Shown piece by piece: positions 45,819 to 55,969 of a stretch of 64,000 bases of DNA (position 1 is its first letter; every line of letters starts with the position of its first letter). The notes below the pieces were generated by a model, which searched no databases, had not been told where the DNA came from, and saw only the letters and a program-made list of their open reading frames with translations. The position numbers and the translations under genes were made by a program. The DNA comes from Candidatus Saccharimonadota bacterium (GTDB lineage Bacteria; Patescibacteriota; Saccharimonadia; Saccharimonadales; Saccharimonadaceae), in assembly GCA_028286395.1 (NCBI GenBank), contig JAQBRS010000003.1:1-64000 (forward strand). Direction: 5' to 3'.

Positions 45819-47066
45819 CTATAGGTCGATTGGCATCGGGATAACTTTTCGCGTCGGCTTGCCAGTGATAGTTGCCGTGAAGTTATCAAGCCCAATACCG
45901 ATACCATACATTGGCGGTAGTCCCATTTCACAGGCATCAATCAGACGTGTGTCATTTCGGAATGCATCTTCAACATCTTCACCCGCTTGGCGAATGAGCT
46001 TCGCGCGTAGTTTATTAGGATTAACTTCTTCTTGGTAAGCTTTCACCATTTCAGCTGTCTTTAGCATGACTTGGAAAGCATCAGCAAAGCGTTCATCTGA
46101 CTTTAACGATGCGGCGAGCGGTAATTGATCGGAAAGGTATCCATCAACGATAAGCGGTGCATCAACAGTAGGGCGAACTCTTCGCTTGATGATAGCATCG
46201 ATGATACCACTAGCGCCTTTACTGTCAGCATCTTCGATTCCTACCGTTACTGCATACGCACGAAGGCCTTCAATATCATCTGCATCAATAAAGCTAAGGA
46301 TCTTGTCAAAGTTAACATCGTGCGCATGAAATAGTTCAGCGACTGATGCTTTTGGAATGTTCGTAAAATCGTAGTTTGCGCCTTGTGCAGAGGCAATACC
46401 GTTGAGCAAACGCTCTGTAAGATCTACTGCTTCGTCGCGTGTCTGATAGGCAGTATATGCCTCGATGTTCGTAAACTCTGGGTGATGGCGCGTGTCGATG
46501 CCTTCATTGCGGAATAGGCGTCCAAGTTCATAGACTCGTTCAAGTCCAGACAGTGCCATGACGACCTTTAGATCAATCTCGGGTGCAATACGTAGGTGTC
46601 GTGCACGTCCATCAAAGTTTGCGACTGTATCAAAAGTTCGAGCAGCAGCGCCCGAAGCGGTTTTTTGAAGAATACTTGTATCAACAGATACGTATCCATC
46701 GTTATCGAGAGTATCGTGAAGATTTCTTTGCATCGTATGTCGTCGCCGGAGCATATCAATATATTCGGCTTGAGCTTCATATCGCTCTTGTGTGTCGGCT
46801 CCAGGCCAACGAGGACGATCATTCGTTGCTACCGTTTGAACGGAGTCGGCGAATAGTGAGATCTGGCCAAGTCCACGACGAACACTTAACTCTGTTTCAC
46901 CAAGTTCACCAGTCGCTTCAACAATGTCACCAGTTTTAGTTGGCTGCTCAAGTCCATTCTTTGAAACAACTTGAGTAGAAGCTTCACCGGGGAGGCCAAT
47001 GTCCAAAAAAGTCACATTGCGTGATTCTCGGAGAGCCGTTACTTGTCCTCTGATGACCTCTGTCAT
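45819..47066 (-). CDS. lysS: Class II lysyl-tRNA synthetase
   Basis: YVSVDTSILQKTASGAAARTF; LRIAPEIDLKVVMALSGLERVYELGRLFRNEGIDTRHHPEFTNIEAY; start MTEVIRGQV about 47066. Confidence 0.93.
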   Translation of the reverse strand: MTEVIRGQVTALRESRNVTFLDIGLPGEASTQVVSKNGLEQPTKTGDIVEATGELGETELSVRRGLGQISLFADSVQTVATNDRPRWPGADTQERYEAQAEYIDMLRRRHTMQRNLHDTLDNDGYVSVDTSILQKTASGAAARTFDTVANFDGRARHLRIAPEIDLKVVMALSGLERVYELGRLFRNEGIDTRHHPEFTNIEAYTAYQTRDEAVDLTERLLNGIASAQGANYDFTNIPKASVAELFHAHDVNFDKILSFIDADDIEGLRAYAVTVGIEDADSKGASGIIDAIIKRRVRPTVDAPLIVDGYLSDQLPLAASLKSDERFADAFQVMLKTAEMVKAYQEEVNPNKLRAKLIRQAGEDVEDAFRNDTRLIDACEMGLPPMYGIGIGLDNFTATITGKPTRKVIPMPIDL

Positions 47067-47135
47067 AATATCTATGACTATACTATAAAGTCGGATAAAT
47101 GCAATATGCAAACGACTATTTAACAGATAAGAAGC

Positions 47136-48185
47136 TTACGCTAAGAAGACTCTTCCGAGCTTTCCGTCTATAAAAAGTGGCGTGGCATGTTGGATTTTTT
47201 CTATATCAACACCAACGACGCAGGCCTTTCCAAGTTCACGACAGACAACGGCTGAGTGAGATAGCATTCCTCCCATCCTTGTTACTACACCTTCAGCGGT
47301 CATGATATACATCATATCTGCAGGTGAAGTCGCACGAGCGATGAGGATTTTACCTGATGCCCAACCAGCTCCGTGTTCCTGGTCTAGTCGATATGCAGCA
47401 CCAGACGCGCTGTAAGGACTCGCTGCTTCACCGTTTATAACGCTTTCTTCGGATGTAACAACTTCTATGCCGCTTTGTTCACCGATTGCTTTTGTCACTT
47501 TCCTTAGCTGTAGCCATTGAATGCCATCTTCAGTGATACAAAATTCTAGATCAACATCGTAGCCTAGTTTTTCTTGGATCTCTTTACAGACCTCGGCAAC
47601 TGATTTTCCGTTCTTATCTCGTAGGATAGATGCTGCATCCATATTTACGATTAGGCCATCTTTGTCGTAAGTCTCATGGTATGGTTTAACTGTCCCGTCA
47701 ACAACGGCATCACCGCGTCCCTCGGTCCACTCTAGACGACCGCCAGAAGCGCCAGTACCCATCCAAACCCCACCAGCAGAAGGCTCTTTGAAACTTTGAA
47801 CGATAACGTTCATCTTAATATCTTCAAACGGAATACCCATTGCTTCACAATATTCTCTGACGTTAGCAAGTTCAACAGATCGTCGAACATCATTGATTCT
47901 GCCCGGGACTTGCTCGGCAGAGACATCAAGAAAACTATCAAATTGACCAGCAAAAGAGGAGTTTGCGCCATCTTCAATATTCGCTGAACTTCTTAATGCA
48001 ACTTTTCCAAATGAGGTGACGAATTCGTTTACGCGACCAAGAACCTCTGGGTCAGTAACGTCTGTGTTAAATGGGATCACAAAGTATTCTGGTACTTGAT
48101 ACCCCATTTCGCGCAGAATATTTAAGCCGATAGCTTTTCCACCTTGCTCCTCGGGATTTGTGGTATCATGTCTCAAATCATCCAT
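47136..48185 (-). CDS. PEP synthase/PPDK-like protein: ATP-grasp + phosphohistidine swivel domain only
   Basis: GKAIGLNILREMGYQVPEYFVIP; VALRSSANIEDGANSSFAGQFDS; TRMGGMLSHSAVVCRELGKACVVGV. Confidence 0.88.
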   Translation of the reverse strand: MDDLRHDTTNPEEQGGKAIGLNILREMGYQVPEYFVIPFNTDVTDPEVLGRVNEFVTSFGKVALRSSANIEDGANSSFAGQFDSFLDVSAEQVPGRINDVRRSVELANVREYCEAMGIPFEDIKMNVIVQSFKEPSAGGVWMGTGASGGRLEWTEGRGDAVVDGTVKPYHETYDKDGLIVNMDAASILRDKNGKSVAEVCKEIQEKLGYDVDLEFCITEDGIQWLQLRKVTKAIGEQSGIEVVTSEESVINGEAASPYSASGAAYRLDQEHGAGWASGKILIARATSPADMMYIMTAEGVVTRMGGMLSHSAVVCRELGKACVVGVDIEKIQHATPLFIDGKLGRVFLA

Positions 48186-48221
48186 TGCGGTTACTATACC
48201 ACGACAACCGTATAATGCAAC

Positions 48222-48752
48222 TTAGTGTTTTAAGCTAAATGCTTCAGCAATTAGCTTCACAGCCGCCTCTGGATCTAGTTCTGATGTGTTGATCTTTAAA
48301 GATTCGACAAATGGAATAGAATATATGTCCATCTTTTCTGTAATTTTCGCCATCTTTACAGGATCGGTAAGTTTTTTGTATTGCTTTCGAGAATCGCTAT
48401 CTACGCGTTTGATCAGATCTTCACGATTAGCCGTGAGCTCTACAAAATGCACTTCACCATGATTGCTCTCTATGATATCGATAAATCGTCGTATGTCGCG
48501 GTCGTCGTCTGTACCTTCGTAGACATATGTAAAGATAAGGTCGGTGTCGTGTTTTGCGCAGTAATCAAGAACTTCAAAGCGGATTGTATCAACAAGTGCA
48601 TAGTGTTGCCTTAGTGCATCTTTATAAATATTTTGGACAAGGTCACGAGAGAGGTGATTATGAAATAGTGGAATATCAGTACTCGCAGATAGCTTTTCTG
48701 CGATCGTGAGCTTACCCGAAGCAGGAGGTCCGTATAAGAATAGTAGTTTCAT
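48222..48752 (-). CDS. P-loop kinase-like (AAA) protein (ATG 48752)
   Basis: MKLLFLYGPPASGKLTIAEKLSAS Walker A. Confidence 0.85.
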   Translation of the reverse strand: MKLLFLYGPPASGKLTIAEKLSASTDIPLFHNHLSRDLVQNIYKDALRQHYALVDTIRFEVLDYCAKHDTDLIFTYVYEGTDDDRDIRRFIDIIESNHGEVHFVELTANREDLIKRVDSDSRKQYKKLTDPVKMAKITEKMDIYSIPFVESLKINTSELDPEAAVKLIAEAFSLKH

Positions 48753-48839
48753 GTCCGTCATTATAGCAAAATTTTATAAAATGCCACTACTGTTCCGGTA
48801 TTTACGTTACTCCGATTTCATGCTATAGTTTCTTCTAAT

Positions 48840-49997
48840 TTGTTATCGCTATTAATGGGGATGGCAGAGAGGACAATCGATCGTATGAGCAATGGGCCAA
48901 CGCCTGCACGAATCAACTCTCCGGAAACACTTACCGCGACGAATACAGCACGCGTAAACTTTCCGCCTTCTAATCATGAGCCAACGATCTTCTTTATTAG
49001 CGCAGACAAGCCTGGCTTACGCTGGGACGGTGCGCCACTTCGTATCATTACGGGGGTGGAGCAACACACAGACGTTCACCCGTCTTCACAATTTCTTGAT
49101 CAGCCATTATTTACGGTTCAGGACGGTGCTATTGTCTCGGCAGGCAATCGACTTGTAAATGCGGATGACTGTGACCCTATCTTCCTTACGAATCTTGCGG
49201 ATAGGTTAGCGGACGGAGATATGCCGTATCCCGAAGAAATTCGAGGGACCGTCATTGAACATATACGAGCCGCATTCTTGAAAGAGGGAACACCCCGAAT
49301 GTTCCACGACAGCCTTACGCCTTATACGAACGTCGTATTCAAGGATGACGAACGACCCGAAACGTACCGCGTCACGGGTAAACTGTTTTTTGAGAGTATG
49401 GCAACAAAAAACGTTCTTGCCTTTGATATTCACGATCTACTTCATCACCCGGTACAGCTTGCCGCCTGGCCTGAACAGTTCGAGTTTATTAGCAGAGCAG
49501 GTGCTGTTGCGCACGCATTACCAAAAGAAGTTGAGTACGCAGCTCGATTGAAAAAACTTACTCAACTGACATGGCTAGCTGGGTTTGAAGAATCTTTGAT
49601 CACAATGGACGAACAACTAGTAAGCTTCGGATGCCTGAACTGGCTATCGCCATCTGAAACTCCTTTAGATAAGAAGCCCGATATACGAACATTATCTATC
49701 GAGGAACAAAAGATTGCCTATCGTTGGCATTACTTGGATGCACTAAAAGACATGTTTAGAATTCAGACGGCCAATTCAGAACAGTTTGGCGAAAACCTTG
49801 ATTGGTTAGAGAAGCTTGGTTACAGTATGGATGCTAAGCTTAAGGCGCTTGTTGATAGTGATCATCCTCGTCCCTTCGAAGACCTTGACTACTTCGATGC
49901 GCTGTCATTTCATATAACAACCCCTGCGTCGCCCGAAGAACTATTTGCAAACGCCATACGACTTATTGAAGAGGAGTTTCAGCGTGTACAAAGGTGA
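48840..49997 (+). CDS. Hypothetical protein, first gene of ALDH-LysRS operon (start uncertain: 48840/48858/48885)
   Basis: Long ORF overlapping downstream gene; -10-like TATAGT upstream. Confidence 0.75.
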   Translation: MLSLLMGMAERTIDRMSNGPTPARINSPETLTATNTARVNFPPSNHEPTIFFISADKPGLRWDGAPLRIITGVEQHTDVHPSSQFLDQPLFTVQDGAIVSAGNRLVNADDCDPIFLTNLADRLADGDMPYPEEIRGTVIEHIRAAFLKEGTPRMFHDSLTPYTNVVFKDDERPETYRVTGKLFFESMATKNVLAFDIHDLLHHPVQLAAWPEQFEFISRAGAVAHALPKEVEYAARLKKLTQLTWLAGFEESLITMDEQLVSFGCLNWLSPSETPLDKKPDIRTLSIEEQKIAYRWHYLDALKDMFRIQTANSEQFGENLDWLEKLGYSMDAKLKALVDSDHPRPFEDLDYFDALSFHITTPASPEELFANAIRLIEEEFQRVQR

Positions 49998-52914
49998 TGC
50001 GATAGAGTTTGCTTTAGTAAACAAGCAGTCTCTTAAGATTGCGAATACGATAAAAGCAAAAAAAGGTGAGTTGATCGCAGCGCTGACAAAATACGAGACA
50101 TATAAAACCGCTGAAGATGAAATAGAACGAACACTCGACCTATTGACGAGCCTTGGAGAGAACAAACTGTACTTCAAAGAAATAGTAGGTCCTGTCGCGG
50201 TATTTATGCCCAGCAATCAACCACTGTACTCACTTGCGTGTTTTGCAATTGTTCCCGCATTCATGTCAAAAAAAGTGAGCGTAAAACCACCAGAAATTAT
50301 GAATGGTTTTTATGAAGAAATGTTAGCGATTTTAGACATTAAGAATACTGTGCCAAATATTGAGTACATGAAACTTTCTCGAAAAGAATGCCTCAGTATT
50401 TTCACGGCTACAAAACTAGATAAGCACACAAACCGACGACACCCACTATACGAGGCGGTGATATTCACAGGGACTACACAAAATGCGGATAAGCTAAGAA
50501 AGAAGTTTCATAGTTCGACACTATTTATTACAAACGGATCTGGGCATAACCCGATTGTCGTTACTGAGTCAGCAGATACCGATAAAGCAGTCGCCGGCAT
50601 CATGAGCGTACGCACGTATAATCAAGGGCAAGATTGTGCTGCGCCCAACTCAGTACTCGTGCATGCATCCGTCTACGATACTGTCCTCGAGCAACTCAGA
50701 AAAGCTATTGCTGCACTAAAAGTAGGGGAATACAGTTCACCTGAAACCGATATAGGCCCGATTAGCAGACCCGAAACACTATCTGCCGTAAAAGACTTCC
50801 TTTTAAGAAACAGCGTATACATCGACGAGACAACCGATGGCATTATTCGTGCACGCACCTTGATTATCGAACCAACAATAGTCACAAAACCTCTCAAGGA
50901 TGGCGCAAATTTCGAAGAACTATTCGCTCCAGTGTTTGTCATACAAAAATATGAAGATGATACTGATTTAAATAATTACTTCGAAGATAAACAGTATGCG
51001 GACAACGAAATGTATACCACTGTTTACGGAGCGAGCACCTACGTGACCAATTTTGTCACTAGAAAAGAAATGATCATTCATGATACCGATTTACATGCGC
51101 CAGGTATTGAGCGCGGCGTTAAGCCTTATGGTGGCTACGGACGTGGGGCATCGTGTATTAGTAAAGACGGCAGTATCGTTAGTTGTCCAACATTGCCACA
51201 AAGAGACCTATTCGAATATCTTGTTTTAAAAAAGAAAATCGATCCAGGCGAAAAACGTAGTGAAAAGAAACCTGACTTTCAAAAATCAAATCGAAGTATT
51301 CTCAAAAAAAATATGCACTGGAGTGAACGTCTCGCAGATCGTGTCATTAAGCAATTCCCGGATCAAGCCGTGTACACTTGTGCCGCCGGGATTAGTCCAT
51401 CTGGTGTTGTTCACTTTGGTAACTTTAGAGACCTGTTTACATCGCATGTCGTCTCGGAATCACTTATCAAGAAAGGCAAGAAAACAAGGCTTGTACTATA
51501 TTGGGATGACTTTGATAGTTTCAGAGAAGTACCCGCAGATATTGATCCAACTTTCGAAAAATATATAGGAATGCCCTATAGCCAAATTCCTTCTCCGGAT
51601 GGTACGTATGCGTCATATGCAGAAAAGTTTGAAAAAGAGTTTGAAGCCAGCATCAAAGACATGGGTATCGAAACCGAATATGTCTATCAAACAGTCGAAT
51701 ACAAATCGGGTACCTACGATGACCTTATCATCCATAGCCTCAAGAATCGGAAAGCTATCGCCGATATCCTTCTATCGTTCATGTCAGAACAAGCCAAAAT
51801 TGAAAAAAGCATCGATGACGCAACATATAGAGAAGACTACTATCCTATCGTCCTTTACTCACGATTTACGGGCAAAGATAACACAAGGATCTTGGGCTAC
51901 GATGGCACATCAATTATTACTTACAAATGTTTCGATACGGGTAAAACCGAGTCAGTTGATATAACGAAAGATCATATCGTAAAACTTTCGTGGAAGATTG
52001 ACTGGGCAATGCGTTGGAGCAAAGATCGTATTGCCTTTGAACCTGCTGGATCGGATCATGCTTCTCCAGGAGGTAGTTTTGATACTTCAAGTACTATTGC
52101 GACAAAAATATTTAGTTCAATTCCACCAGTACTCGAAGAATATAAGTTTGTCGGTATTCAGGGTGTTGGTGGTAAAATGTCTAGCGTGAAAGGTGGTGTT
52201 GTTTCGCTTAATAACTTACTCGATATATACACTCCGGAGATGCTGAAGTGGCTGTACGCAGACAAGCCTCCAGCGCATTCATTTGAGCTTTCTTTCGGTA
52301 AAGATATATTCAGGCAGTACGATGAGTTTGATAAGGCTACAGCAGGTCTTAATAGCGGTACGATCGACAATGCGCTTATCACCGCATTAGATTTATCGGG
52401 CGTAGCGGCATCAAGTACCCACGCACCTATTTCCTTCAGACAACTTTTAGGATTAGGTCAAATAGTCCAGTGGGATAAGAAAAAGCTAAAAACAATCCTC
52501 GATAATCAAGAGCTAGTATTTGATTCTAAGCTTATCGACACAAGACTGGCGCGAACAAGAGCTTGGCTAGAACGATATAACGAAGACGAGGCGATTACTA
52601 TCCAGTCTGACTTTAATCACGACTATGTCTCGTGTATGACTGTTGAACAAATTGCACTAGTGAACCACCTCTATGAGTATCTTGCAGATAATAAAACTAC
52701 GTCTATTGATGAAATCAATGTTGCGATCTATGACATTCCCAAGGTAGAGGGAATCGGCATGAACGAACTAAAAACTCGACAAAAAGCCTTTTTTAAAGAT
52801 ATCTATAATTTACTCATCAATGATACTACCGGCCCAAGATTATCAACGTTCTTATGGGCCGCAAACCGCAAGAAAGTGCTACAACTTCTTGATATTAAGG
52901 AGTACTCGTCATGA
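49984..52914 (+). CDS. Fusion: aldehyde-dehydrogenase-superfamily domain + class I lysyl-tRNA synthetase (GTG 49984 with SD GAGGAG preferred over TTG 49945)
   Basis: ALDH: VGPVAVFMPSNQPL, IFTGTTQNADKL, NQGQDCAAPNSVLV, EELFAPVFV. LysRS-I: CAAGISPSGVVHFGNFRD (HIGH-type), DWAMRWSKDRIAFEPAGSDHASPGGSFDTS, GVGGKMSSVKGGVVSLNNLLDIYTPEMLKWLYA. Confidence 0.92.
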   Translation: MYKGDAIEFALVNKQSLKIANTIKAKKGELIAALTKYETYKTAEDEIERTLDLLTSLGENKLYFKEIVGPVAVFMPSNQPLYSLACFAIVPAFMSKKVSVKPPEIMNGFYEEMLAILDIKNTVPNIEYMKLSRKECLSIFTATKLDKHTNRRHPLYEAVIFTGTTQNADKLRKKFHSSTLFITNGSGHNPIVVTESADTDKAVAGIMSVRTYNQGQDCAAPNSVLVHASVYDTVLEQLRKAIAALKVGEYSSPETDIGPISRPETLSAVKDFLLRNSVYIDETTDGIIRARTLIIEPTIVTKPLKDGANFEELFAPVFVIQKYEDDTDLNNYFEDKQYADNEMYTTVYGASTYVTNFVTRKEMIIHDTDLHAPGIERGVKPYGGYGRGASCISKDGSIVSCPTLPQRDLFEYLVLKKKIDPGEKRSEKKPDFQKSNRSILKKNMHWSERLADRVIKQFPDQAVYTCAAGISPSGVVHFGNFRDLFTSHVVSESLIKKGKKTRLVLYWDDFDSFREVPADIDPTFEKYIGMPYSQIPSPDGTYASYAEKFEKEFEASIKDMGIETEYVYQTVEYKSGTYDDLIIHSLKNRKAIADILLSFMSEQAKIEKSIDDATYREDYYPIVLYSRFTGKDNTRILGYDGTSIITYKCFDTGKTESVDITKDHIVKLSWKIDWAMRWSKDRIAFEPAGSDHASPGGSFDTSSTIATKIFSSIPPVLEEYKFVGIQGVGGKMSSVKGGVVSLNNLLDIYTPEMLKWLYADKPPAHSFELSFGKDIFRQYDEFDKATAGLNSGTIDNALITALDLSGVAASSTHAPISFRQLLGLGQIVQWDKKKLKTILDNQELVFDSKLIDTRLARTRAWLERYNEDEAITIQSDFNHDYVSCMTVEQIALVNHLYEYLADNKTTSIDEINVAIYDIPKVEGIGMNELKTRQKAFFKDIYNLLINDTTGPRLSTFLWAANRKKVLQLLDIKEYSS

Positions 52915-53486
52915 TAGGTGGCATTGAAGACCGTCACAAACAGCAAATACATGATGCTATTAACGATATCTATGGCTCTACGAACATAGAGGCGGCATTT
53001 ATCACCGGAAGTGTTGCAGCAGCGAAAGCAAGACCTGATAGCGATGTGGATATATTCGTCTGTCACGGTGACGCAATCGATTCACCTGAAGATAAAAAAC
53101 AAAAATTCACTGATTTCTATTTTGATCTTCATGCGCAACTGGGTCGAGAACCAGACCCAATTTCACCCGGTGAGGTATTGTCACTTTCTGGCCTTACCTT
53201 GGCGACACGGAGAATACAAAATGTTATGCCAAGCACGGTATTATATGAGCGCGACGATTTTGATGCAATCTGTTGGGCTGGCATGCTAGTAAGTAAGCGA
53301 GACATATTGATGCCATATTCCGAACATATGGAATCACTACGAAAAATATCTCGATTGGTCGTTTATAAATGGGCATCCGCCCTCACGGTCGGTGAATCAC
53401 TGACAGAAGAAGCAGGTGAGTATTCGGACGTCGACAAGGTCCTACGTAGAACAATTAGTAGCCCTGGCTACTATGATGCACACTAA
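52911..53486 (+). CDS. Minimal nucleotidyltransferase (MNT/pol-beta superfamily)
   Basis: AAFITGSVAAAKARPDSDVDIFV (GSxAx..DxD); ATGA overlap with fusion gene. Confidence 0.85.
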   Translation: MIGGIEDRHKQQIHDAINDIYGSTNIEAAFITGSVAAAKARPDSDVDIFVCHGDAIDSPEDKKQKFTDFYFDLHAQLGREPDPISPGEVLSLSGLTLATRRIQNVMPSTVLYERDDFDAICWAGMLVSKRDILMPYSEHMESLRKISRLVVYKWASALTVGESLTEEAGEYSDVDKVLRRTISSPGYYDAH

Positions 53487-54553
53487 AAGTTAAATTCTCT
53501 TTGTGCATTGTCGTGAAATATGGCTTGAACATGCGCGTCTACTTTTCTTGCCGAAACAAGGCCACGGATTGCAACCAAAAGTGCGTCTTCTTGCTGTAGC
53601 TCACAGTACATAAGGTTTTCTGGTAAAAGATGCTTATAGGCATCATACTCTTGCGGGTCTACCCAATGATAAGGATAGTCCGTTAAAAGACGCGGGCCTT
53701 TGACGGGATTAACATATGTAAATTCTCGTAGTAAATTTAGTGGTTCATCTGAGCCATATAACACTCTCTGAGGCCCAAGATGCGCCAGTGTCGCCCGTAT
53801 GATTGCACTATTCGTCACGCCAGATGTATCAACAGTGATGTTCTTATAGCCGGCAATCTCTGCCATTGTGGTGTCGAAATCAGTGGGTAGAGTCCATGTA
53901 ACTCCAGCGTGCGCAAGCATAATCCTCAAATTTGGGTAATCCTGTACAAGCATTCGTATCTCGTCCATCGACTTCGATACGGTCTTCGGCAAGTGCAATA
54001 TGATCGGCACAGCAACTTTTTCAGCTATTTCTAGCACTTGGGGAGGGAAGTATTCGTATAAATTTTTCTTTTCTTCAGCAGTAGAGCAGTAATACATTTT
54101 TAAAGCGGAATATTTTCCAGACAGTAATTCTTCTCTGGTATATTCAATCTCTTCATCATTTTCAGATACACCGAACAGCGCAACCCTGTCCTGAACGGGT
54201 GATTGCTCGATCAAGTAGTCATTTACCGCCTTGTGGTCTATTCCTCTGAATGCGTGAGCAAAACGTAACTTTCGTACACTCATACCTGGATGTAGCAGTG
54301 CGTCTATTTGTTGTGACTGTTCGATTGTCGTTTCTGGAAATGTACTTGCCGACTTATCTAAGATAGTTTGGGCCTTAGTGATATCAAAATGATCCTCTTC
54401 ACTTGCATGGACATGTGCATCAATGATAGACGAAGGAAGTTCCTTATTAAGTTCGTCTATAAATGCGACCTCGTAGTCCATCGGCTTCATACTATGCGCA
54501 AAATATGCAGCAAAATCAGGAGATGGTAATTGTTCCACTGTACTCATAATCAT
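53483..54553 (-). CDS. Amidohydrolase (amidohydrolase_2 / metal-dependent TIM-barrel hydrolase)
   Basis: IDAHVHASEEDHFD; IILHLPKT; IMLAHAGVTW; VLYGSDEPL. Confidence 0.85.
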   Translation of the reverse strand: MIMSTVEQLPSPDFAAYFAHSMKPMDYEVAFIDELNKELPSSIIDAHVHASEEDHFDITKAQTILDKSASTFPETTIEQSQQIDALLHPGMSVRKLRFAHAFRGIDHKAVNDYLIEQSPVQDRVALFGVSENDEEIEYTREELLSGKYSALKMYYCSTAEEKKNLYEYFPPQVLEIAEKVAVPIILHLPKTVSKSMDEIRMLVQDYPNLRIMLAHAGVTWTLPTDFDTTMAEIAGYKNITVDTSGVTNSAIIRATLAHLGPQRVLYGSDEPLNLLREFTYVNPVKGPRLLTDYPYHWVDPQEYDAYKHLLPENLMYCELQQEDALLVAIRGLVSARKVDAHVQAIFHDNAQREFNF

Positions 54554-54652
54554 TAATATACGACATTATTTATTGATCTGCAAAAACAGTTTATAAATAA
54601 TAACTGCTCGTGCTTGCTAAACCACAACCTACCACCGATAATATACATACAT

Positions 54653-55969
54653 ATGAGCACCCAGCAGATACCATCCGGAGAACTGCAAACAGGTAAAAAC
54701 CTTCTTTCTTACCTAAGTCCTGAAGAAAAACACAAATTAGTCGGTAGTTTTGTCATTGAAGATTTCTGGGATACTTTCAATGAAGAGAACAGCGACCCGA
54801 TTGACAGGTTTAGACAACTTGCAAAAGAATCTATCCCAGAATTCATTGAAGCGTACCAAGATGTCTGGGATTATGTAGTCGACATAAATGAACTCGATGA
54901 TACTTTCTTAACTGAGAGTATTGAAAAGAATACAGTATTTAACGGGCTGAGTCTTGAAGAACTACAGATCGCAGGTAACCTCTTGAGTCTATCTCTCTAC
55001 TCTGAGCTTGAAAAAGACTGTCTCATGGCACTCAACAAGACCATTCTTGGTGAGCTTACTGACGGCTTAAGAGCAAAGTACGGTTTTAGTGATGACGAAT
55101 ACCAGTTACTCATGACGCCATCCTTTGAAACCTTCTTTACGAAGTATCACTTTGATCACCTTGAATATGCGATTAATGAAGATCCTGAATCAAAAGCCGA
55201 ACAAAGAGAAGCGTTAATACGTAACTTCCATGCTAATGACCCCGCATTATTCGAACTAAGATTTGCAGATATGCATTTCCCAGTTGTCGACAACATGGGA
55301 GAGATGCTTGCAATGCAAAAAGGTATGCTTGCACAAAGGGCCGCGAAAAAAGTAGCATTCATTGGCGAAAGAGAAGATCTTACCGCATTCGAGAAACTGC
55401 TTGAATATGATAATTTTCTAGACTTTGAGTATCGATACAACCTGGAAGCTTGTCCAGAGTATTATCTCAGAAAGAAGCTATTTGCCGCCTGCCAAGAAAA
55501 CGGCATATTCACAGACCTTACCAGCCCTATGGCGTTGAAAGACCCTGAGTTCATTGACGGCGTTAATAAATTGATCAATATACGATCGACAAAATATATT
55601 ATCGATGCTCATCCAACACTCGACACCGATGAAGTTAGTATCGATGGCTCAAAAGAAACAATCTTGAAATATCTAAAAAAAGGTTCACCCGTACTCGCTC
55701 GACGAAAAGGACAAGATCAATCAGATGAAGTCATCACAATCGTTGGATATGAGAATAAAAGTATCATCGCCAAGAACAGTGACGATCAGTATTCTGAATT
55801 GAGCGATACGGAACTTGCATCTTACCAGTTATTCTCTGCTTTACAGAAGTACGATGAGCTGGTGACAGAAGGCTTAAAAGCTTCGATTAGAGTATTTAAC
55901 AAACGTACTCCGTACCTCAACCGCGCGGACTACGAACATGGCTTTCAGGTTTTGCCTTTAGCAAGTTAG
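54653..55969 (+). CDS. Hypothetical protein, ~438 aa (ATG 54653)
   Basis: Long ORF; segment KYGFSDDEYQLLMTPSFETFF loosely resembles linker of PEP-mobile-domain proteins. Confidence 0.75.
   Translation: MSTQQIPSGELQTGKNLLSYLSPEEKHKLVGSFVIEDFWDTFNEENSDPIDRFRQLAKESIPEFIEAYQDVWDYVVDINELDDTFLTESIEKNTVFNGLSLEELQIAGNLLSLSLYSELEKDCLMALNKTILGELTDGLRAKYGFSDDEYQLLMTPSFETFFTKYHFDHLEYAINEDPESKAEQREALIRNFHANDPALFELRFADMHFPVVDNMGEMLAMQKGMLAQRAAKKVAFIGEREDLTAFEKLLEYDNFLDFEYRYNLEACPEYYLRKKLFAACQENGIFTDLTSPMALKDPEFIDGVNKLINIRSTKYIIDAHPTLDTDEVSIDGSKETILKYLKKGSPVLARRKGQDQSDEVITIVGYENKSIIAKNSDDQYSELSDTELASYQLFSALQKYDELVTEGLKASIRVFNKRTPYLNRADYEHGFQVLPLAS

Follow-up and report, generated by a model that had tools for sequence, protein, structure and literature searches.

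Carboxylic acid reductases and the alpha-aminoadipate reductase Lys2 turn a carboxylate into an adenylate and then, via a thiol, into an aldehyde within one polypeptide. To our knowledge, HemA is the sole known reductase of an aminoacyl-tRNA, and we know of no described fusion between an aldehyde dehydrogenase (ALDH) and an aminoacyl-tRNA synthetase. Here, we describe a fusion of an ALDH to a class I lysyl-tRNA synthetase (LysRS-I), which is encoded at positions 49984..52914 of the forward strand in a stretch of 64,000 nucleotides (hereafter the window) from a Candidatus Saccharimonadota bacterium (assembly GCA_028286395.1, contig JAQBRS010000003.1, positions 1 to 64,000). The host belongs to the Patescibacteria, which are reduced, largely host-dependent bacteria for which little specialised metabolism is known.

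In HemA, a cysteine attacks Glu-tRNA and the resulting thioester is reduced with NADPH (PMC6399207). The reaction proposed below for the fusion is alike, as an aminoacyl-tRNA and a cysteine would yield a thioester and, via NADPH, an amino aldehyde. However, HemA is of an unrelated fold and family, the amino acid handled by the fusion would be lysine (or arginine), and here the synthetase resides in the same chain. Carboxylic acid reductases and Lys2 differ in using AMP-binding, carrier and thioester-reductase domains. The Pfam search assigned Aldedh and tRNA-synt_1f alone to the fusion and detected neither these three domains nor domains of the HemA family. In its chemistry, the fusion may resemble HemA or a carboxylic acid reductase, but it is a member of neither group. 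The LuxC-type acyl reductases and the CoA-acylating ALDHs share the thioester chemistry of the ALDH superfamily. In contrast to these enzymes, the fusion has no match to PF05893, the LuxC family, and would take its acyl group from an aminoacyl ester or adenylate.

Charged tRNA is also diverted to a small molecule by SbzA, a synthetase paralogue encoded in the SB-203208 cluster, an accessory gene cluster (PMC6331615). Unlike in the fusion, the acceptor is a sulfonamide nitrogen and there is no ALDH domain. In some organisms, the two LysRS classes (I and II) act together (PMC2916919), and the locus described here likewise encodes a class II LysRS-like protein beside the LysRS-I half. It differs from class I LysRS and from the paired systems in three respects: the LysRS-I is joined to an ALDH, its class II partner lacks the motif-3 arginine, and translation relies on a separate class II LysRS. 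Moreover, the autoinducer 3,5-dimethylpyrazin-2-ol (DPO) is also fed by synthetase-made aminoacyl adenylates (PMC12930378). Our search of the open literature, outside of which most subscription papers lie, found no description of an ALDH-synthetase fusion or of a Lys/Arg aminoacyl-tRNA reductase, in agreement with a first-pass annotation, made from the DNA sequence of the window, whose author knew of no such fusion. What we regard as new is the architecture of the fusion, together with its gene island and the ties to synthetases across the family.

Architecture and conservation of the fusion

The fusion gene is a single stop-free frame of 976 codons running from a GTG start codon at 49984 to the stop at 52914. 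An AGGAG sequence (49972-49976) lies 7 nt 5' of the GTG, which overlaps the stop of the upstream gene X, and at the 3' end the stop codon shares an ATGA with the start of the following gene. The deduced protein of 976 aa matches Aldedh (117 bits, cut-off 23, E 1e-33) and tRNA-synt_1f (335 bits, E 4.5e-100) in Pfam, as well as the LysRS-I equivalog TIGR00467 in NCBIfam (366 bits, cut-off 147.6). The ALDH half (residues 1-422; 49984..51249, +), as judged from the family alignment and the Aldedh match (profile positions 73-395 of 461), lacks ~70 residues found at the N-terminus of ordinary ALDHs. It is followed by a disordered linker (residues 423-441; 51250..51306, +) and by the LysRS-I half (residues 443-976; 51310..52911, +), which is assigned by TIGR00467, comprises the catalytic domain and the C-terminal anticodon/helical domain and aligns across the whole length of 1irx, the LysRS-I of P. 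horikoshii. An AlphaFold2 model (mean predicted local distance difference test, pLDDT, 89.7) revealed two confident domains with the linker between them at pLDDT < 50, and a Foldseek search with this model matched 1irx and many ALDHs (ALDH prob 1.00). The first-pass annotation had read one uninterrupted ALDH and LysRS-I frame, and the open reading frame, Pfam, NCBIfam and AlphaFold2 agree with it; the motifs quoted there (VGPVAVFMPSNQPL, NQGQDCAAP, EELFAPVF, GISPSGVVHFGN, FEPAGSDHASPGGSFDTS and GGKMSSVKGG) are all present.

The same full-length uninterrupted fusion occurs in Ca. Saccharibacteria bacterium 49-20 (MKSN01000001.1, here G105), with 63% identity; in total, it was found in 2/17 genomes of the genus. 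Between the two genes, the proportion of differences at synonymous sites (pS) is 0.85-0.87, which means saturation, and that at nonsynonymous sites (pN) amounts to 0.20 for the ALDH half and 0.25 for the LysRS one. Residues 421-442, which contain the linker, share just 18% identity. Since synonymous sites are saturated while pN is low in both halves, selection has maintained both within a single chain; the ALDH and the LysRS halves are under purifying selection. An assembly or frameshift join is ruled out by the full-length relative and the saturated synonymous change, and also because the fusion recurs in G105 inside an island with differing flanks. Related genomes with two separate reading frames, which the first-pass annotation had named as evidence against a genuine fusion, did not emerge from this comparison.

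The synthetase half carries the HIGH-type motif GISPSGVVHFGN (51388..51423, +) and the KMSKS-type motif KMSS (52174..52185, +), both located by alignment with 1irx and standalone LysRS-I. A comparison with 29 standalone LysRS-I from related genomes revealed that both fusions retain all catalytic signature residues, including the HIGH- and KMSKS-type motifs, WDDFD, EPxGxDH and the residues of the ATP and lysine sites. Together with TIGR00467 and 1irx, this comparison confirms the earlier reading of a complete LysRS-I with intact signatures. The LysRS half is nearest to the LysRS-I enzymes of two family relatives, G028 and G006 (about 37-44% identity), neither of which showed a class II LysRS, and is just 25-29% identical to the other LysRS-I of the order. 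The host has a separate class II LysRS (G000:C3, around 53155-54153, L085), which passes NF001756 (471.5 vs 468). A role of the fusion as the housekeeping LysRS is ruled out by this enzyme elsewhere in the genome. Judging from these sequences, a LysRS-I that had been freed from its translational duty, with a class II enzyme in its place, appears to have been reused in the fusion.

The ALDH family and its synthetase partners

The ALDH family was searched across Patescibacteria (about 900 genomes, handles up to G896). Nine close members were found, which are scattered through Patescibacteria and form a monophyletic group (support 100/100); residue counts refer to the eight members aligned over their full length. 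The catalytic Cys218 (GQDC; 50635..50637, +), the equivalent of Cys302, is kept in all nine members, so that the cysteine noted in the first-pass annotation is intact and has not been lost in the homologues, nor have the lysine- and ATP-site signatures of LysRS-I been lost in the two full fusions. Asn78 and Glu312, the equivalents of Asn169 and Glu399, are, like Cys218, invariant in the family alignment. Moreover, the NAD(P)-site residues Asn169 and Glu399, the FTG motif and a Lys or Arg at position 192 are kept family-wide. By contrast, the position of the catalytic Glu268 is occupied by Asn in 7/8 and by Ser in 1/8 members, while 42/45 other Patescibacteria ALDHs retain the glutamate. In the window protein, Asn184 (NGSGHNP for ELGGKNP; 50533..50535, +) takes its place, and the general base that marks hydrolytic (oxidising) ALDHs is therefore missing. 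Glu268 is required for thioester hydrolysis in oxidising ALDHs (PMC8160307), and its loss favours a role of the family in reduction or acyl transfer. PF05893 matched the G831 member weakly (22.0 vs 21 bits, far below its Aldedh score).

Most of these ALDHs are joined to, or lie beside, parts of a synthetase; the member of G869 runs off its contig. The partner is a full LysRS-I in two members (the window and G105). In G750, a stretch of ~150 residues after the ALDH resembles LysRS-I in its C-terminal, anticodon-side (tRNA-binding) part alone; the best matches are to both fusions (E 5e-13 and 6e-13), followed by the G028 enzyme (2e-10). In G145, G290 and G287, which represent three GTDB families, a standalone ALDH gene lies tail-to-tail with a gene resembling arginyl-tRNA synthetase (ArgRS), and each of these genomes encodes a further ArgRS for housekeeping. 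The neighbour in G145 is a full ArgRS with an altered HIGH motif (GINH). The divergent neighbours in G290 and G287 lack HIGH and KMSKS, the ATP-binding motifs; their ArgRS N-terminal domain has a Pfam E of 0.087 and 0.0014, respectively, and the pair was aligned to ArgRS by hhalign with a P of 2e-5. The associations in G290 and G287 may share a single origin. By our own estimate, which is not the output of a tool, three ArgRS-like neighbours among some 900 genes are very unlikely to have arisen by chance.

Since the G750 member keeps the C-terminal domain alone, adenylate formation is not possible there. This fragment and the ArgRS-like neighbours without ATP motifs suggest that what the synthetase part supplies may be chiefly charged tRNA and not an adenylate. 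Furthermore, the finding that ALDHs without the hydrolytic glutamate are associated with Lys or Arg synthetase parts in most of the family suggests charged tRNA as the substrate.

Proposed reaction and alternative explanations

We give about an even chance to the fusion being an aminoacyl reductase that reduces activated lysine. In this scheme, the LysRS half would activate lysine and probably also charge and hold tRNA-Lys. The lysyl group would then be handed over to Cys218 in the ALDH half by way of the flexible linker, be held there as a thioester and, the hydrolytic glutamate being absent, be reduced with NAD(P)H. The released lysinal (2,6-diaminohexanal), for which cyclisation is expected, would be passed to other enzymes of the eight-gene island. 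Lysine as the substrate, the reductive direction, lysinal as the product and any downstream pathway are what we infer from the sequences. The first-pass annotation had left open whether activated lysine is turned into lysinal or an acid is made in the reverse direction; the replacement of Glu268 by Asn or Ser in 8/8 aligned members favours the former and disfavours the latter.

The form in which the lysyl group is delivered may be read in two ways. The tRNA ester is suggested by the pattern of partners in the family, the adenylate by the pattern of constraint in the fusion pair, and the former is slightly favoured over the latter. A sub-case of the reductase reading, which we consider rather unlikely, is that the lysyl group moves directly from Lys-AMP in the LysRS active site to the cysteine of the ALDH half, without tRNA, as in a carboxylic acid reductase. 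It is in line with the retention of all ATP- and lysine-site signature residues and with the conservation of the LysRS catalytic domain (69% identity between the window and G105) ahead of the C-terminal domain (46%); the latter domain is on average 55-59% identical (range 49-69%) in pairs of standalone LysRS-I with similar catalytic identity. This shortfall weakens the case for the tRNA route in this lineage, where Lys-AMP may be used directly. However, the G750 member cannot make an adenylate and the two ArgRS-like neighbours without HIGH and KMSKS also speak against this sub-case.

The other alternatives assign a different task to one of the halves. It is improbable, but conceivable, that the cysteine takes lysine from Lys-tRNA or Lys-AMP and hands it, without redox chemistry, to another product of the island at an amine or hydroxyl group. 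SbzA, an IleRS-like enzyme that moves Ile from Ile-tRNA to a metabolite, provides a precedent (PMC6331615), the loss of Glu268 would shield the thioester from water, and the best ALDH matches in Foldseek are PHBDD variants, for which the PDB titles mention amide products; yet the family-wide conservation of the NAD(P)-site residues would not be expected for an unused cofactor. An accidental or regulatory fusion, with the LysRS half acting as a spare or stress LysRS and an unrelated job for the ALDH half, is very unlikely: although the cereus case (PMC2916919) may be cited in its favour, the two halves have stayed joined in both genomes, and members of the same ALDH family are separately linked to a C-terminal piece of LysRS-I and to ArgRS-like neighbours. 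We regard as least probable of all that the ALDH oxidises an aldehyde to a lysine-analogue acid that the LysRS half then activates. The fold is that of an ALDH and ordinary ALDHs run in this direction, but Glu268, which is needed for thioester hydrolysis (PMC8160307), is lost in 8/8 aligned members, and partners such as the ArgRS-like proteins without ATP motifs or the LysRS fragment could not activate an acid in this way.

Several observations weigh against the fusion being an aminoacyl reductase. A cysteine without the glutamate is also compatible with acyl transfer lacking reduction, and position 192, which is Lys in the window protein, is Arg in 6/8 aligned members. No synthetase part lies near the ALDH members of G637 and G831. 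Moreover, the identity of the C-terminal domain in the fusion pair falls below the minimum of the range for standalone LysRS-I. The AlphaFold model, which the first-pass annotation had suggested as a check, yielded two confident domains; it does not fix their relative placement (predicted template modelling score, pTM, 0.58).

If the aminoacyl reductase chemistry is as proposed, the fusion would be a convergent analogue of HemA. It would represent a second, unrelated aminoacyl-tRNA reductase built from ALDH and synthetase parts and a new exit of charged tRNA from translation, and it would show how a synthetase released from housekeeping, with class II replacing LysRS-I, can be reused. More broadly, and with slightly less than an even chance in our estimation, Patescibacteria may possess a hitherto undescribed family of ALDH-fold aminoacyl(-tRNA) reductases that borrow tRNA-binding or activating parts from synthetases for basic amino acids (LysRS-I or ArgRS), thereby turning Lys or Arg from translation into amino aldehydes that start small-molecule pathways of mobile islands.

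The eight-gene island and other genomic neighbourhoods

The fusion gene is part of an island of eight genes (45819-55969), which is collinear between the window and G105 at 62-81% identity; the flanking genes do not match within the stretches compared. On the reverse strand, the island encodes an extra class II LysRS-like protein (45819..47111, -), which keeps a lysine-type motif 2, carries Asn for the motif-3 Arg (GLDNF) in both genomes and is 81% identical in G105; this protein is not the housekeeping LysRS. It is accompanied by a protein resembling pyruvate phosphate dikinase (PPDK) and phosphoenolpyruvate (PEP) synthase, with an ATP-grasp part and a phosphohistidine mobile domain as judged from profile matches (47136..48185, -), and by a small P-loop kinase-like protein with a weak AAA_18 match (48222..48761, -). 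The PPDK/PEP-synthase-like protein has 349 aa, and among its weaker NCBIfam matches are rifamycin phosphotransferases and the prodigiosin ligase PigC. A divergent promoter-like pair (48760..48829), identified by a consensus match alone, lies between the island's two arms.

The forward arm starts with gene X (48885..49997, +), an orphan of 370 aa whose only detected homologues are that of G105 and, at 27%, one in G270 (L125, 8455-9606). Gene X has conserved His/Asp/Glu residues (FDIHDLLHHP, FEESLI); its AlphaFold2 model was unusable (pLDDT 39.6) and no relative was found in the PDB. Downstream of the fusion are genes for a Pol-beta-type nucleotidyltransferase (52911..53486, +; Pfam) and an amidohydrolase (Amidohydro_2 in Pfam; 53483..54553, -). 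The last island gene, delimited by comparing the window with G105 and examined with Pfam, encodes an orphan of 451 aa (54614..55969, +). The island has no terminal repeats of at least 18 bases, and neither Rfam nor ARAGORN detected an RNA element or a tRNA-like gene in it. A defence system was rejected as an explanation, as the PADLOC matches were weak and concerned a nucleotidyltransferase and an ATPase only; a viral origin or spread was likewise rejected, as scans of IMG/VR found no relative.

The neighbourhoods of other ALDH family members contain further genes. A nucleotidyltransferase that is 27% related to that of the window lies 1.3 kb from the G637 member, with a transposase-like pair of open reading frames between them (L124, 5843-7764). 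In G290, a gene for an NNMT/PNMT-type methyltransferase precedes the ArgRS-like gene by 4 bases (L059, 6555-8709). On the contig of the G287 member, a class II synthetase-like protein (PF00152) of 307 aa is encoded at a distance of ~15 kb (L088, G287:C10:20127-20897). The G831 member has an N-terminal extension of 158 residues (L122, 7674-8130) that belongs to no recognised family, and a tRNA-Lys (CTT) gene is located 1.5 kb away from it (L122, 10934-11007, -).

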